Shown here in pieces: positions 2,094-11,253 of a stretch of 64,000 nt of DNA. The DNA is taken from the NCBI GenBank assembly GCA_947568835.1, contig OX387606.1:9238001-9302000 (forward strand). The letters run 5' to 3'. The DNA comes from Protonemura montana (taxonomy: Eukaryota; Arthropoda; Insecta; Plecoptera; Nemouridae). Each line of letters opens with the position of its first letter. Within the stretch, counting starts at the first letter, position 1. The notes under the pieces are model-generated. The model was not told the DNA's origin. It ran no database searches and was given only the letters and a program-made list of their open reading frames with translations. Position numbers and translations under genes: made by a program.

Positions 2094-2306
2094 CTAGCCA
2101 GGGGTGGGTGAGCCCGCTGGCCCGGGATTTGCAGCACCTCCCGGGTCCCCCAGCGAGAGCGCCTGGACGATACGAGGGTCTGCCTTGCTGCCCTCCCTGA
2201 ACTCCTCCAACGTGAGCCGGTCGTCGTGGTTTTTGTCCATCTGGTCGAAGATTTTGTCCACTCTCTTCTGCGGCGTGTTCTCGTCTTCGGCTTGCGGCTG
2301 TTGGCC
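2094..2306 (-). CDS. Frq: Frequenin coding exon 7 (EF-hand 4, unusual tail, stop)
   Basis: 213 nt: [20 protein letters not shown], then the EF4 loop [12 protein letters not shown], then [17 protein letters not shown]. After this come [18 protein letters not shown] and a TAG stop at 2094-2096. The acceptor CCAG lies just 5' on the minus strand. The tail is 18 residues rich in Gly, Pro and Ala; I know arthropod frequenin as ending in a short Gly run here. EF4 position 6 is Asp instead of Gly. Confidence 0.94.
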
Positions 2307-5300
2307 CTGGAAAATATGCAAAAGCGATTTTAGAATCTTGTCGAACTCTTGTTTTTTTTTCCTCCGATAACGTTTTACAATGTCTTCAACACAGAGCAAT
2401 ACCGTAAAGCACATCTCAACAATTTTATGAAAATACTATAAAGTATTTTCACTTTAAGAATGGCCAGATAAAAGTGCCAGTCAAGCAGAATTCTTGCCAT
2501 ATTGACTTTTACTTCTGACTTCACCAATAGACTTAATGGCACTATGGATAATTACACTATGGAGACACTAATCACACCATGGAGATATCTATGAAGATAT
2601 CTTAGATGAAAAATACATTTTGGCTGAAACTTGATTTTGGTTGGTGAGTAACAGTGTGCAATGAGTGCACTTAAATCGAAAGAAAATGATTAGTTACCAT
2701 GATTTAAAATATATCTTTTCCTCTCTCGCCAATTTCTCTCTCGCGAACACTAAGTGTACATTCGTTGCACCAACTAAAATCGACGCTAGTCATGTGAATG
2801 TGTTAGTGGAAAATGCAATTTTGTTAAGTTTAGGAACTGCAAGCTGCAACTCAAGGATGTGCAGTTTTAATAGCAATCCTTGTTCACATAAAATTTTCTT
2901 GCTAGCTTGTATCATGCAATTAGCTTTATCGTTATTCGCATTCTTGTTTGCATTGCCCCATGAAACGCGCAACCCAAAAACACTCGAGAGTGGAGCCAGC
3001 TTTCAGACGAGCTTTGCCCTCAGGAATATTCATTTAATTAACAATGACTGTTCGGTCCATTCTCAATTGATTGCAGATTTTTAGTAAACCATTTCCCCCT
3101 GCTCCTTTTATGTACCTTCTAATTTTTAGCTTTCAAATGATAATTTTACTGGAAACCAATTTCGATTAAGCTGGATTTTTTTATCGCTTGCGAGTGGTGC
3201 ATTCAGTTGGGCTTGAAGCCCCCTCAGTAACAAAGCCTAATTTATGAACGAGAGACGGACTTTACAAAATGCTTTTAATTTTCTCTTTTGGATAGACGAC
3301 GAATTCGCATGCATGCAAATATGCTTGCTCACAATAAAGTGTCTCAACAAGTGGATATGAGTGACATTGGCAAAAGAATCACCAGCCAGATCCTACCCTC
3401 ATCGGTCTTGTTCAGATAGAATCACTTTCGACGAGACAAAGAAAGTCGAACCATTCTTCACTCTCGGTGCGTACGAACGCAGTTTTGTGCGTCAGGGCTC
3501 GATCGACCTAACATGTGCCCCTAGCGTTTGTATGCGGGAAAACGAGACGTGCGCGCTCCAGAAAGCATCCTGACTCCTGAATCCTGACTCGCATCACACC
3601 GAAACCTATGTGCGACCACCAACTCTCTTGAGCCCGATATAAAATCCTTGACCGGCTCGCCACCAACTTGACCACTGGACCAGTTTATCAGAGATCTGAA
3701 CTGTTCGCCGGTTGCCGCCCACGGATTACAATAAAACAGAAACGTACTAACGGCGGTGTTTAACGGTGTGTTGTCTTGACACCAGGCCAACAAACGGTGA
3801 ACACTGAAAACGTATCAGGTTGTGTCTAATCCGTTGGTATCTTCTTTCTAGGAGTCGAACGGTGAAAAGCGACTTGAGAAGCCAAGTTTGAAGACATTTG
3901 AGCCAAGATACGGTCTTCTTGCGAGTTACTAATTAAAGACGGTTCGACCACTGTCTTGGTACTGATGGTAAGTAGCTGAAACTTCTTGCTTAAGTCACGT
4001 CCGTCCACTGTATGTCCAACACATGCCCACGTTTGCACTCCAATTTGCCTGTACTGGTCAGTAGTCTTAGCTAAAGTACTTTTAGCTCTTCACTCGTTTG
4101 AGTTCCACACGTTCACCTACTTGTTTCACTATTTGTAATTATCTATGGCGGTACTCGGTGGTCGTATTTCCCATTGGAGAGCAAATTGTAAATCACGCAA
4201 TTACATGCTCTCTCGCCACAATATCTCAAGCGGAATGAAAAATCAGATTACGTTCGGGATAGTCGTCCGGATTTTTGTCTCCTACTTTCGAGTGAATTCG
4301 CTTTTTAGTTCCGAAAGTTTTGCTGGTGTTTCCGACTTTGTGTCTGGTTCTGTTTCGGAAAATCAATAACGTATTTTAGCCGCGCACAATGGGGTCCGTC
4401 GGGGCAGGTATCGTCGGTCGGGTAGCACATATGTCGCGCCGACTTTAATACCGAATTTCATGTCTCTGTTCTACCACATTTTTATGTTATTCAATTAAAT
4501 ATTTAAATAAATGTCGTGTTTTTGTTTTTCAATCGGTAAAAGCAACATGGCGTGTACAGCCCGTGGGACCGTGTGTGTATATATCGAGTGGTAAATTGAA
4601 CAACGATCCCCTTTCGTATATATAGAAAATGGTCCACGGCGCCAAATGTATTGGTCGATCACCTTGATTAGAGGCGGTTCGGAATACTAAACGTTTCGGG
4701 TCTAAATAATTAAATCGTTTCATCAGGCTATGAGTTAATTAAAAGCATTACCCGCGTTACGCAGTTTTGGCCCCGTCGTTCTAACTATGCGGCTGCGTGT
4801 TATTTGCATATTGTATGTTCATTAAAAAGTGGGATTACGCGCGGCCTGGCGTAGAAAGCCGCTGTTGCACTTGTTAAAAAATGAACTTCTAAAGTAATTT
4901 TAATCGTACAGATAAAGAATAATAATAAAAAATAAAAAAAAAATACAATTGACGATAAAACGGTAATTTTTACGCAATATTCAAACTGTTCTCTTTTTCG
5001 ATCAACTCGTGTATTTATTTTTCAACTCGCTAATTCCCTGAACACTGGATGAAATGGTTAACACTACGCCGAGGTGCATAAATTACCACAATTATCCTAC
5101 TAGCCTATCACGCGAGGCTATCCAAATGCACCTCCACTTTAGCAGTGTACTGTTTTGCTATGTAAATCGAGCGGACAAAGCACATTTGAGCGTACAATGC
5201 CATTATTTCGAGTCGGACCGCAGGTCAAACCCAACGCCATGGCTATGTGGATAATTCCAGCTGATTTAATGCGGCCAATATCTCGCGGGTATAGGCAGAG

Positions 5301-8300
5301 ACACCAAATCTACGCCATGGCAGGGCAGACGTAAAGCTTGCATGGCTACTGTTAGTGATAGCCCGTGATTATTTGTGTTAATTCCAGAGATGTCGGTGCA
5401 GATTATCATTTGCACGCAATCGATGCATCACCGGCTCATGCATGACAGCTTTAACTTTATGTTTATATGTTGATACTTTGTGTTTTTATGTGCAACTTCA
5501 TTTCGCCTTTGGGATGCACTGGGAGTGCTGTTATCTAAGGAGTGGATGCCGAAGGCATAACTTTGTATCGTATACTTTACGTGACTTTGTGAAATGAAAG
5601 AAAACTATCACTGGGAGTTGAATTTGTTCCAATAAAATGTCATGAATTGCATTTTCCAGAACGAGTCTCACTGAATTTTCTATCACCTTATGTCTTACAG
5701 TGTATAGCGTAGATCAAGGATAAAACAGACGCTGTTCGTGAATTTTCTTGCTATTTTCTGCTCGAGCAACTCGACGCGCTCTATTTTCGTGTGTTTAGTT
5801 TAGCTTGCAAGTTTTGGTGCTGAAAAGTGTTGGATGCATCCAATATAAATGTTACGCGAAAACATGCTGACCGCCTGTACTGTTCCAATTACTTCTGATA
5901 TAAGGTAGTACATATGTTGTCCTGTACGCTTGACCAGCTTGGAATAAGATCGTTTGTTGAACTGGTTCAGCAATTTTCCCGGTAACATCGCTGGAGAAAC
6001 GTGCACTCTGAATTCATTAATGCCTATGTCCTTTTTCGAGGGTCATCGAATCAAGAGCAATGACACAATCGAGTTAAGAACATGTCCTAACAAAGGATGA
6101 ACTAGATGGGTCATTCCATATCAAGTGCCCACACTCAAAACCTTCACTATCTCAGAACTTGACGAAATTTTCAGGAGGGTTAGAACACCGGAAATAAAAA
6201 ATCTCTTTTAAAGTTTTTTTCCATATGTCTAGCGGTTTGCCCGTGGCAGGGGATGGAAAAATAAAATATTTTACTTTTTGCCCCGCACGGCCATTCACTA
6301 TATTCACTCTAGCGTTTGAACAAATAAACTTAAAACAATGGGATTAGTTCTAAAATGATAATCGTGCTTTCATTAACAAGAAAAAATGCATAAATTGCTT
6401 ACTTATCAAGTTTAGGGGTAGAAAAAATCCACCCTTAAATTTCAACCCTTAATAACTCGAGAAGTAATATTTTTTTTTTTTTTTTGTTTTGTTGTGAAGC
6501 ATCTCCTGTCTATTATCTTTCCATGAAAAAAAAATTAATCATTAACAGCCGTATGATCAGAAGTTATGAGATTTTTATTGTATAAATGTGTGTGCATTTA
6601 GTTGTGTTTCTGCAAGTCTGTTAGCATGGTCCATGCAAATCACCCGTAAATTGATAGATTATATAATTTTTCAGTTTAAAAATTGTGTGTAAGTACTACA
6701 AAGATTCTTTTTACTCACTCATTTCTTCGTTTCACTCTGACCTATCACTCTGGCTTCTTCGAACAACGGCGAGGAGGAGAACACCCGCGTGGCTACTGAG
6801 TGCTCAGACACGGGTACGAAGCAATGCAGTTTTTGCGTGCCGGGAATTGGCCGGGATGACGCAAATCGTGTGGCTAGCACCTGTTCTGTGTCTTGGTGCT
6901 CCTCAATAGTTCCGAATGTGAAGTTGATGGTCGGGATGGCTTCGACCGCCCAATCGAAGAGTTGCCGGGGTGTTATTATTTGCGACTCGTAGGGGCGCTG
7001 AAGACTCGCCCGCGCTGCCAGCCGCTTGACCGTCCCTCCGACGCCGTCGCAGGCGCTCTTCCCATGTGACGTCGCCGTGAAATGCCACTCCACGTCGGCC
7101 CCAAAGTCTCTTTGATAGTGGCACAAGTTGGCAAAATTTTTCCTATTTTTATATTGCGAGGCTGCCCCATCAGAAAAATAGAACATCTTCTTTATGGTCT
7201 GAAATTTATTGTGCAAAAAGCTCACGAGTTTTTTTATGAATAGATGCACTGCGACAGTGTTGTGGATCAAACTCTCGGAAATTACAACAAAGCTGATGTG
7301 GCGCTCTTCCCCGCCCTCTTTGTAATATGCCACGAAGGGGTGGATGGTGGCGGACGCATTGTTCCAGTGGAACCCCTGGGCCTCGTCTTGTAGCACGAAC
7401 GCATAGTTTTCGGCAAAATCACAGATCACCAAAAACTCGCCGGGCAGGAGACCGCACTTGATGTCCGATTGGTGCGAAGAGATTGGTCTCCTGCCCGGCG
7501 AGTTTTTGGTGATCTGTGATTTTGCCGAAAACTATGCGTTCGTGCTACAAGACGAGGCCCAGGGGTTCCACTGGAACAATGCGTCCGCCACCATCCACCC
7601 CTTCGTGGCATATTACAAAGAGGGCGGGGAAGAGCGCCACATCAGCTTTGTTGTAATTTCCGAGAGTTTGATCCACAACACTGTCGCAGTGCATCTATTC
7701 ATAAAAAAACTCGTGAGCTTTTTGCACAATAAATTTCAGACCATAAAGAAGATGTTCTATTTTTCTGATGGGGCAGCCTCGCAATATAAAAATAGGAAAA
7801 ATTTTGCCAACTTGTGCCACTATCAAAGAGACTTTGGGGCCGACGTGGAGTGGCATTTCACGGCGACGTCACATGGGAAGAGCGCCTGCGACGGCGTCGG
7901 AGGGACGGTCAAGCGGCTGGCAGCGCGGGCGAGTCTTCAGCGCCCCTACGAGTCGCAAATAATAACACCCCGGCAACTCTTCGATTGGGCGGTCGAAGCC
8001 ATCCCGACCATCAACTTCACATTCGGAACTATTGAGGAGCACCAAGACACAGAACAGGTGCTAGCCACACGATTTGCGTCATCCCGGCCAATTCCCGGCA
8101 CGCAAAAACTGCATTGCTTCGTACCCGTGTCTGAGCACTCAGTAGCCACGCGGGTGTTCTCCTCCTCGCCGTTGTTCGAAGAAGCCAGAGTGATAGGTCA
8201 GAGTGAAACGAAGAAATGAGTGAGTAAAAAGAATCTTTGTAGTACTTACACACAATTTTTAAACTGAAAAATTATATAATCTATCAATTTACGGGTGATT

Positions 8301-11253
8301 TGCATGGACCATGCTAACAGACTTGCAGAAACACAACTAAATGCACACACATTTATACAATAAAAATCTCATAACTTCTGATCATACGGCTGTTAATGAT
8401 TAATTTTTTTTTCATGGAAAGATAATAGACAGGAGATGCTTCACAACAAAACAAAAAAAAAAAAAAAATATTACTTCTCGAGTTATTAAGGGTTGAAATT
8501 TAAGGGTGGATTTTTTCTACCCCTAAACTTGATAAGTAAGCAATTTATGCATTTTTTCTTGTTAATGAAAGCACGATTATCATTTTAGAACTAATCCCAT
8601 TGTTTTAAGTTTATTTGTTCAAACGCTAGAGTGAATATAGTGAATGGCCGTGCGGGGCAAAAAGTAAAATATTTTATTTTTCCATCCCCTGCCACGGGCA
8701 AACCGCTAGACATATGGAAAAAAACTTTAAAAGAGATTTTTTATTTCCGGTGTTCTAACCCTCCTGAAAATTTCGTCAAGTTCTGAGATAGTGAAGGTTT
8801 TGAGTGTGGGCACTTGATATGGAATGACCCAGATACTAAACAAGGTGCCGCAGCGTGACATCTTCAATGCGATTACTTTTTTTCCCTCAGTTGTTGTTCG
8901 AGCAACAAGACGGAAGAAAAAAAGTTTTCGGACGTTTTATTACCTGCCCTATCTCGCACGAAACAATTCCCTAGCTACTGCAAGTGTCAAAGTAGCGTGT
9001 CACCCAGCTAGACGTGGATCTTGCTAACGTGTCACAAAGATACCGCACGCAGATGCTAACGCGCAGGAAAACTAATTGCTTGCCGCAGTACGCTACGCAG
9101 GGGAAAATGCTGTCGCCCCGTTTTGAAACAGACATTCAATTTGTTGGTCGGGAGGAAATTCTGCGCGGAAAATTATCACGAAACCACACGGCGCGGTCGA
9201 GGTTTGCAGGTAATATACATTCAGGCAGGTATCTGGGACGCCGTTTGAATCTGCATGGAAGACACGTCCATCGCACTGTTCTCCTATATCTCTAATCGCG
9301 AAGATGCTGCGAGCACCGAGGCTTTGTCTCGGTCGATAACAAATAACCAAGAAACGAAGCTACTATTTACGTACATCTACTTAAATGCTTACCTACTCAC
9401 GTTCTACTTATTGTTTAATTTACCATTGTCTAAATCTTTTCATTCCATTACACCCGTACAGTCTAGCTCGCGAAGAAAGATACCAGAAAAAGTACTGCCC
9501 CCCGGCATTGCAACCGACTCATGAATAGAATTCCAGCTTTTTTCAGCGGCGAGATTTAAAAATACTTATTGAGTCTGAAACATAATTTTGAAGATTGTTA
9601 GAACTGGTAGAACAATTCTTATAAAAGCTCGAAAAACTGATAATCTTTGCACGTCAAAAGATTTAGAGCAAAATGAGAATGGCGGACATCAGTAGTGATG
9701 ACTTTTAGTGTTTTTTTTTTTTAATGGCAGTTGTCCCAAATGTCACCCTGATACGACCGGTGGCGCCTCTGCCGGAAAAGTACGTTCTATCGTTGAAACG
9801 GAGTATATACTGCAAGGATAGATGTCGATCTCTTGTCCTCGTATCCACTTCTTCCTTTTTCATGTCTTATCCCCTGCTGATGCCTAGTAATTACTCTGTT
9901 CGATTTGAGCTGTTATCGATTTCTTGGTATTCTCAGTCGTGTACCGAGATTGTACCATTAGGGATAATCGCGCAAATAACGAGGGCTTGCAAGATACGAG
10001 CTGTATACGTATCCCCGATCGTAATTGACTTCAGCTATCTGAAAATTTTTGTCTTAGATACTGGGCGCTGTTAGTTTTCTTTTATGTGGATCATAGATAG
10101 GTATTTCAAGACTTCTCACTGCCCGACGAGGTCTACAAGATACTAAGTTTGATTTTTTTTGAGACTTTGTTTTTGTTGAGATCATATAGGGGGACATATA
10201 AAAACCACATTACTTAGCCATAAAGATCTTGGGGCGCCACCCTGAGAGGGCGTTATAGGCTTAGCCAGGGTGTATTACTATTCCAAAGTTGTTTTGGCAG
10301 CTAATAAAACGGATGAAGATGCCAAAGGAAAATGAGATTTGCATTTCCGAAGAGGAAATACAGTCTTTTCATAAATTTTGACCCGATAAAGTTTCAGGGA
10401 AAGATTGTTGAACGCTATTTTACAAGCAGTTTCATATTGCACGCTTTTTTTTAATGAACTCTGATGAGATGGATACAAAGGCAAGATGCCTAAATTACTG
10501 TTGAAAAAAAAAAGATGCATGATTACAGTATTTTTTTTCGGTATATTATTTGGATGACTAGTTCCATCAATTAAAATGGCTGAAACGCAGCCTTTAAGCA
10601 AGATAAACCCATTAAAGCTTGGTGGCTAATGTTGCATTTGATCGGCTATTTTAAATGGTGTTCGTATCCTTTTCGCACAATAACAGAGGCAAATATTATC
10701 GTCGGGAAATGGCCATTGTTTCCCCCCTTTACGGGAAGTGTAAACCAATCAGCAATTCAGACAACAAATTCACTTGCGTATATCACGCCCGTTATTGATG
10801 ACTGTATACTGTAATCATCGCTTGCAAATTATTGCAATAACTTACCACCATTTGGTATATCGCGTCAACAATGTTGTACATCTCGTCGCGAGTGATGAAC
10901 CCGTCGTTGTCCACGTCGTACAACCGGAAGGCCCCTGTAACAGAACATCAACCATGTGCACCAAATTACCACCAGCTGCCATGGCCACCTGATGTGTGTT
11001 TGATCTCTGATATAGCTATGCCCCACAGTGCTATCACTTGCAACAGTATAGTCTGGTGTAGTGATTATCATCGGTAATTGATATGTATGTCAAAAGCACC
11101 TTCACTAATAACTGAACTAGTGATTTTTTACCTGTCCAGTCCTCTCTATGCCAGAACAAAATGGTTGTTTCGCTGGAAAAAATATCTTCGGCTATGTTTA
11201 ATTCTAATATGTTTCTCTTATACATTTTTGTAAACGTTGATATCATTTCACTG

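Follow-up and report, generated by a model that had tools for sequence, protein, structure and literature searches.

In Drosophila willistoni and D. mojavensis, the terminal inverted repeats (TIRs) of Galileo, a transposon of the P superfamily, have been described as lengthening by absorption of internal sequence, and in one D. willistoni copy, number 147, the TIRs include over 500 bp of the transposase ORF (PMC4168063). In D. willistoni these elements have target-site duplications (TSDs) of 7-8 bp, and the account given of them reports that a functional copy was not found (PMC4168063). Exchange of sequence among Galileo copies has also been proposed (PMC3573991). In maize, Mu killer is a deleted and partly duplicated element, both TIRs of which come from one end, and it contains an inverted duplication of about 1.3 kb of the transposase gene (PMC3440606).

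The window analyzed here, a 64-kb stretch of Protonemura montana DNA, contains at 6108-8830 a palindromic DNA transposon of 2,723 bp, made of two 1,346-bp arms and a 31-nt spacer (Table 1). It is the only inverted repeat found in the window in a search for arms of at least 60 nt lying within 8 kb (14-nt seed), and it has the long, near-identical inverted arms, short spacer and bounding TSDs of a fold-back element. Base-by-base comparison of the arms, which an initial annotation had delineated, gives 100% complementarity over 1,346 bp; the inverted-repeat tool returns 1,347 bp because the flanking T and A pair as well. The same annotation had noted AGAT on both outer sides, and these four bases do stand there.

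Table 1. Features of the fold-back element and of the host gene around it (positions in the window).
Feature	Position	Strand	Basis
Last two detected frequenin/NCS-1-like exon matches and element-bearing intron	2145..10932	-	tblastn
Target-site duplication AGAT, left copy	6104..6107	.	
Left arm = parent positions 1-1345	6108..7453	+	aligned to parent L047; 100% identical to right arm
Open frame, C-terminal transposase part, left arm	6719..7531	-	
Open frame, C-terminal transposase part, right arm	7407..8219	+	
Spacer	7454..7484	+	alignment to parent L047; class A junction
Right arm = inverted copy of parent 1-1345	7485..8830	-	alignment to parent L047
Target-site duplication AGAT, right copy	8831..8834	.	

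The ends of this element are common to L047, an autonomous-type element of the same genome, which we treat as the parent. With respect to it, the left arm has a 1-nt homopolymer insertion and comprises the 3′ terminal repeat and the C-terminal part of the transposase gene, with the minus strand as coding strand. The right arm matches the 3′ half of the parent with 6 mismatches and 1 gap over 1,346 bp, as against 11 mismatches and 1 gap over 506 bp in comparison with the parental 5′ TIR; judged by these alignments, it is derived from the 3′ half and not from the parent's own 5′ end. The spacer had been attributed to the reading frame of the right arm. The alignment reverses this, 7454-7480 corresponding to parent positions 1346-1372 in continuity with the left arm and 7481-7484 being a GATT filler at the junction. 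Read on the minus strand, 7454-7480 give SHQSDIK, matching the parent protein, and the plus-strand frame that crosses the spacer into the right arm is open only incidentally. The proposal that both arms encode identical proteins holds for the open frame, which is the same in the two, and fails for the first residues, which differ; in the left-arm frame, those upstream of SHQSDIK come from the palindrome and not from the parent.

With a frequenin/NCS-1 protein sequence as tblastn query, NCS-1-like exon matches were located on the minus strand at 26744-26682, 14404-14180, 13897-13814, 10932-10846 and 2288-2145. The element sits between the last two, and on these matches it occupies an intron of a frequenin/NCS-1-like gene, where the initial annotation had placed it.

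The parent is 3,780 bp long, with a single intact ORF of 689 aa, presumed to be the transposase, TIRs of 505 bp that are 98.6% identical, and CTTA as TSD; since it already has such repeats, the fold-back has lengthened native TIRs. The proposed loss of the 5′ half of a DNA transposon, and gain of an inverted copy of the 3′ half, is supported by this full-length relative, which has the N-terminal half and whose 5′-half markers recur genome-wide: the one at position 2400 at 59 places (56 exact, 3 with one mismatch) and the one at position 3150 at 55 (52 exact, 3 with one mismatch). The 3′ marker occurs at 151 places. Two one-armed copies, L013 and L016, were also considered as full parent and rejected, both being truncated.

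The ends and junction of the window element are found elsewhere in the genome, and the fold-backs, each with one of four junctions, number at least 41: class A, that of the window, 9; class B, 10; class C, 6; and class D, 17 places in 16 elements, one of which, L061, holds two. These searches tolerated up to 2 mismatches, and every match was exact. Matching 4-bp TSDs flank 36 of the 37 fold-backs for which both ends were found and, with the autonomous copies (5/5), 41 of 42 elements; at the two central positions, A or T makes up 144 of the 164 bases counted over 41 elements and both strands. The mirror form is present at dozens of places in the genome and is therefore real and mobile.

Representatives of the classes nest in class B. 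One element of each class was compared with L019, of class B, after long homopolymers had been collapsed: class A (the window element) is B with GATT in place of 585 bp, class C (L027) is B with 12 nt in place of 224 bp, and class D (L040) is B minus a net 97 bp between 12-bp direct repeats, with zero mismatches in the common prefix and suffix outside homopolymers. B and D have part of the junction in common. The nesting script did not resolve four elements (L024, L035, L060 and L061) as single-deletion derivatives of B, A or D; L061 is rearranged, and the exact-match walk of the script halts where sequences differ close to the poly-T tract. Furthermore, 121T and 230A are present in every aligned fold-back row and in none of the 15 autonomous copies compared (L047, ten 3′ parts and L064-L067), and 1425C, present in the representatives of B, C and D, is found in 0 of 5 full-length autonomous copies. 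An autonomous copy with the full fold-back haplotype was not seen, four unpaired places with the fold-back 531 allele being left out.

From this we infer one fold-back event followed by deletion derivatives, all mobilized by the parental transposase, and the window copy most likely arose elsewhere, as a transposed and internally deleted descendant of a longer class B fold-back. Altogether, we give a probability of about 85% to the reading in which the family is non-autonomous and descends by folding back from a young cut-and-paste transposon, with a single strand switch, transposase-driven spread, later tip deletions and occasional arm rewriting. One parental copy would have been hit by the switch, probably during repair of an excision gap: synthesis proceeding inward from the 3′ end would have reached about position 1,810, passed to the complementary strand where a short stretch matched and copied the 3′ end a second time on its way outward, so that a mirror of the 3′ half replaced the 5′ half. 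The product and its junction are read directly in the DNA; the switch itself we infer, because no copy at the birth site was found among the copies examined. Having retained two good transposon ends, the fold-back could be moved by the parental transposase, as TSDs and copy number suggest, and later internal deletions at the palindrome tip would have generated the shorter classes, including the window element, a step that appears as exact nesting in class B (one representative per class).

Recent formation or ongoing arm correction had been suggested for the window copy; the formation is recent, and arm variants bear signs of correction. Among the 38 of 41 fold-backs compared, a non-majority variant occupies both arms of one copy in 8 cases (378 in L032, L035, L036 and L038; 772 in L033 and L012; 546 in L039; 442 in L061), which suggests arm-to-arm correction. 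Such correction would be incomplete, because most differences stay in one arm (31 single-arm differences). The near-identity of the arms would thus reflect a young family in which one arm occasionally serves as template for the other, a view supported, though not proven, by these variants. It is less probable, yet deserving of attention, that youth alone accounts for the identity and that both-arm variants come from recurrent formation or from exchange with autonomous copies: 15 of the 38 have no variant at all, and 378T and 772G are also found in autonomous copies. Exchange is possible, since 378 and 772 vary there and L024 has, in one of its arms, the alleles of the autonomous type at 531 and 772. 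Against youth alone, 546G (L039) and 442T (L061) are each confined, among the aligned rows, to a single copy, where the two arms have it, L039 being without matching TSDs and L061 re-rearranged; in addition, the arm that carries 13G or 127A, long or short, changes between copies, a pattern that arm exchange predicts.

Rather improbable, in our estimation, is that the fold-backs silence their parent, palindrome transcripts forming long hairpins and these in turn siRNA, a mechanism put forward for Mu killer. Much of the C-terminal part of the transposase gene is present twice, in near-perfect arms, the window copy is inside a gene intron, and the architecture of Mu killer is very similar (PMC3440606). 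Nevertheless, the parent is young and present at 55-59 places, and Mu killer transcripts are described as mainly shorter antisense RNAs unable to form large hairpins, the study proposing another model, to which long hairpins might contribute (PMC3440606). Highly doubtful is the stronger version, a mobile Mu killer in which one strand switch would have created a self-spreading transposase hairpin, with introns as RNA sources silencing the parent and arm rewriting keeping the hairpin perfect; if true, fold-backs carried into introns such as that of frequenin would shut down the very parent that moves them.

The classes A, B/D and C could also have folded separately from autonomous copies, by strand switches at different places. 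The junction differs from class to class and contains filler in two of them, and independent origin was our initial reading; it was dropped because of the nesting test and the shared alleles, and we now hold it to be very unlikely. Starting from B, one deletion suffices to give each of the A, C and D representatives, without mismatch outside homopolymers, and the fold-back alleles are absent from the 15 autonomous copies. Moreover, fold-backs of the 5′ end were not seen, no opposite-strand pair within 10 kb occurring among the 59 and 55 marker places (lists read by eye), a search blind to arms shorter than about 600 bp. Finally, although chimeric reads can yield perfect palindromes, an assembly artefact or a local inverted duplication of host DNA, which the initial annotation had tied to an absence of other copies with these ends, has a negligible probability, given junctions recurring in 41 elements at separate places, TSDs matching in 36 of 37 and an assembly that separates single-arm differences.

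A fold-back transposon would here have been caught early in its birth and spread: the persisting near-identity of parent, founder type and derivatives leaves the steps readable from the sequence. The family offers a testable natural case for two questions, whether conversion keeps the arms of short palindromes identical and whether mobile elements with an inverted duplication of a transposase gene silence their parent, as has been put forward for Mu killer. Forty-odd dispersed, near-identical palindromes would, in turn, be candidate sites of chromosomal rearrangement.

The presumed transposase gave no credible match. In Pfam, the window frame had none, and the 400-aa frame (DCX2_DCDC1, E 0.0067) and the 689-aa frame (Dehydrin, E 0.14) had only sub-threshold matches; against PDB sequences a single match had an E of 0.82. 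In viral contigs, 9 stretches fit a pattern and none encodes a relative. The structure predicted for the C-terminal part in the window (252 aa, no alignment) has a mean pLDDT of 36.9, and 0 of 464 Foldseek matches reached E ≤0.001, so no claim is made on the fold. As a lead only, the parent protein may resemble transposases of the Sola2 superfamily. TSDs of Sola2 are AT-rich and of 4 bp, AWWT in Dictyostelium fasciculatum elements (PMC3627910), and the TSDs found here are likewise of 4 bp and AT-rich.

Fold-back elements have been described before from flies and from maize, and the family is a variant of them. As in Foldback (FB) and FB-like elements, such as Tetris, most of the element consists of long inverted arms; classical FB arms are internal tandem repeats, whereas here they are transposase-gene sequence with a known parent. 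With Galileo it has in common the nature of a cut-and-paste element whose TIRs are extended from internal sequence (PMC4168063). Unlike Galileo, it has 4-bp TSDs, instead of the 7-8 bp of D. willistoni, and includes copies whose ORF is intact, and its extended form has been amplified into a largely nested family in which the arms are nearly identical. The likeness to Mu killer lies in the inverted duplication of part of the transposase gene and in both ends coming from the same TIR. However, Mu killer is a locus defined by its silencing of MuDR (PMC3440606), a Mutator element, whereas the present family, without credible Pfam match, comprises at least 41 elements, with TSDs in 36 of 37.

The initial annotation described a long-armed inverted repeat bounded by AGAT at 6108-8830, and the sequence bears this out: the two arms of 1,346 bp are 100% identical, the spacer between them measures 31 bp, and AGAT is present at both outer sides. 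It is the sole inverted repeat found in the window with arms of at least 60 nt lying within 8 kb. The spacer had been assigned to the reading frame of the right arm, and the reverse is the case: it corresponds to positions 1346-1372 of the parent transposon (counted from the end nearest the 3′ side of its gene), running on from the left arm, followed by a 4-nt GATT filler. Both arms encode the C-terminal part of the transposase; because the N-terminal part is absent, the element should be non-autonomous. Altogether, the window element is real, recent and well explained.

Scoring of 40 candidates (573 in a first look) for the left arm as genome query yielded 51 matches, mostly arranged as inverted pairs. 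Tracing sequence inward from such matches led to L047, a copy of the autonomous type and the full-length relative with an N-terminal half that it had been suggested to look for. It is 3,780 bp long, with CTTA as target-site duplication (TSD), terminal inverted repeats (TIRs) of 505 bp that are 98.6% identical, and one ORF of 689 aa, reading from the far end toward the end duplicated in the fold-backs. With up to three mismatches permitted, a 41-bp parent marker at 2400 matches 59 places (56 exactly, three with one mismatch) and another at 3150 matches 55 (52 exactly, three with one mismatch); the figures count markers, the majority of the copies behind them not having been read at full length. 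When the 5′ part of the parent (1,376 bp) served as DNA query, L047 scored 2482 bits and the other 39 copies 2478 bits each, with the full query covered (40 of 97 candidates scored). The parent family is young. Among five full-length copies examined, the 689-aa frame is uninterrupted in L047 and L064, has altered ends in L065 and L067, and is far shorter in L066; L064-L067 are a non-random sample, having been chosen for carrying the fold-back allele at 531. At G000:C13:3530729-3540692, two 2400 markers lie 796 bp apart on one strand, about 8.4 kb from a place with that allele, possibly representing a nested or rearranged autonomous copy.

The fold-backs fall into four junction classes (see table), counted by pattern with up to two mismatches permitted, every match being exact, and amount to 41 elements.

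Junction classes of the fold-back elements, in parent positions
Class	Structure	Places
A (window type)	1-1372, GATT, 1345-1	9
B	long arm to about 1810, 10 nt, then 1482-1	10
C	1-1611, 12 nt, 1467-1	6
D	long arm to about 1810, then 1397-1	17, two within re-rearranged L061

The parent marker at 640 was counted at 151 places (positions given for the first 100), about the number that a pair in each fold-back and a single one in each autonomous copy would produce. Allele 531A occurs at 85 places (exact pattern), which by eye resolve into 36 pairs on opposite strands plus 13 single places, four of the latter (C2:28356317, C13:3540656, C15:1686250, C16:14173969) standing outside the sequence comparison. 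Several fold-backs (L009, L011, L012, L024, L026, L035, L060) have extra deletions or losses in one arm, the second arm of L009 being reduced to a 311-bp remnant. L061 (G000:C1:3767650-3771250), with the class D junction at both sides and scrambled tip segments, is an example of ongoing instability.

One representative per class was compared with class B (L019), long homopolymers being shortened. Each differs from B by a single internal deletion: in the window element (A) GATT stands in place of 585 bp, in C (L027) 12 nt stand in place of 224 bp, and D (L040) lacks a net 97 bp between 12-bp direct repeats; under this treatment, all three show zero mismatches to B in the shared prefix and suffix. 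The same script did not recover a single-deletion derivation for L024, L035, L060 and L061: in the first three the exact-match walk was halted by differences near the poly-T tract, and L061 is rearranged. The succession could also have run from D through B to C, since C nests in B and not in D. Furthermore, 121T and 230A are common to all fold-back rows counted (without the L024 long arm and the L035 short arm) and absent from the 15 autonomous copies compared (L047, ten 3′ parts and L064-L067). Position 1425 separates the B, C and D representatives, which have C, from the five full-length autonomous copies, which have A. Other fold-back alleles, among them 119T, 531A, 772C and 1071T, are partly present in L064-L067. 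The simplest account is a single fold-back event in a progenitor lineage, followed by internal deletions and transposition. The parental sequences that meet at the B/D junction have CC and, close by, a TTTTATT run in common, consistent with a strand switch where short sequences match. The switch could have occurred during gap repair; a similar argument has been made for defective Galileo copies (PMC4168063).

TSDs of 4 bp are identical in 41 of the 42 elements having both ends (36/37 fold-backs, 5/5 autonomous copies; L009, L012, L013, L016 and L026 lack an end). The AT-rich 4-mer is preferentially preceded by C and followed by G, each in 47 of 82 base counts over both strands. The sole exception among the 37 fold-backs, L039/L048 (G000:C16:12340387-12345087; ATGT versus ATTA), has a private variant in both arms and may have arisen when copies recombined.

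Arms were compared in 38 of the 41 fold-backs (without L009, L016 and L026), excluding the poly-T tract; 15 are variant-free. The same non-majority variant appears in both arms of one copy in eight cases, at four sites (378, 442, 546, 772). Between-arm differences number 31, of which six lie at deletion edges (L011, L012), seven are in L024 alone and nine are one shared variant, 13 A>G. The variant at 13 is in the long arm of seven copies and the short arm of two, and that at 127 in two and one, respectively; such switching is as would be expected from arm exchange. Against arm correction, 378 and 772 vary among autonomous copies too, at 531 and 772 one L024 arm has alleles of the autonomous type, and both carriers of private both-arm variants are atypical (L039 without matching TSDs, L061 rearranged). 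Arm-to-arm correction is likely, not proven.

The proposed location in a frequenin intron also holds: a frequenin/NCS-1-like gene runs on the minus strand, and the element lies between its exon matches at 10932-10846 and 2288-2145, so the pre-mRNA would contain the palindrome. The gene spans about 24.6 kb (2145-26744, minus strand). Four of the five exon matches detected have 62-79% identity to NCS-1, and the match at 14404-14180, apparently crossing an intron, has 43%. That the palindrome may act as a siRNA source or silencer is a hypothesis, for which Mu killer offers a direct architectural precedent (PMC3440606); the same paper also describes short antisense transcripts and a model needing no long hairpin.

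A literature search, covering titles and abstract starts among the matches listed and few subscription papers, returned no report of the window element and no amplified, nested fold-back family of comparable sort. In its 4-bp AT-rich TSDs the family agrees with Sola2, a candidate superfamily (PMC3627910). Among the published cases found, Galileo comes closest in having taken a piece of its transposase ORF into the TIRs, a trait described there as so far unique to that element (PMC4168063); for D. mojavensis, TIR growth and sequence exchange have been discussed (PMC3573991). The fold-back family is a variation on an already known type of element.
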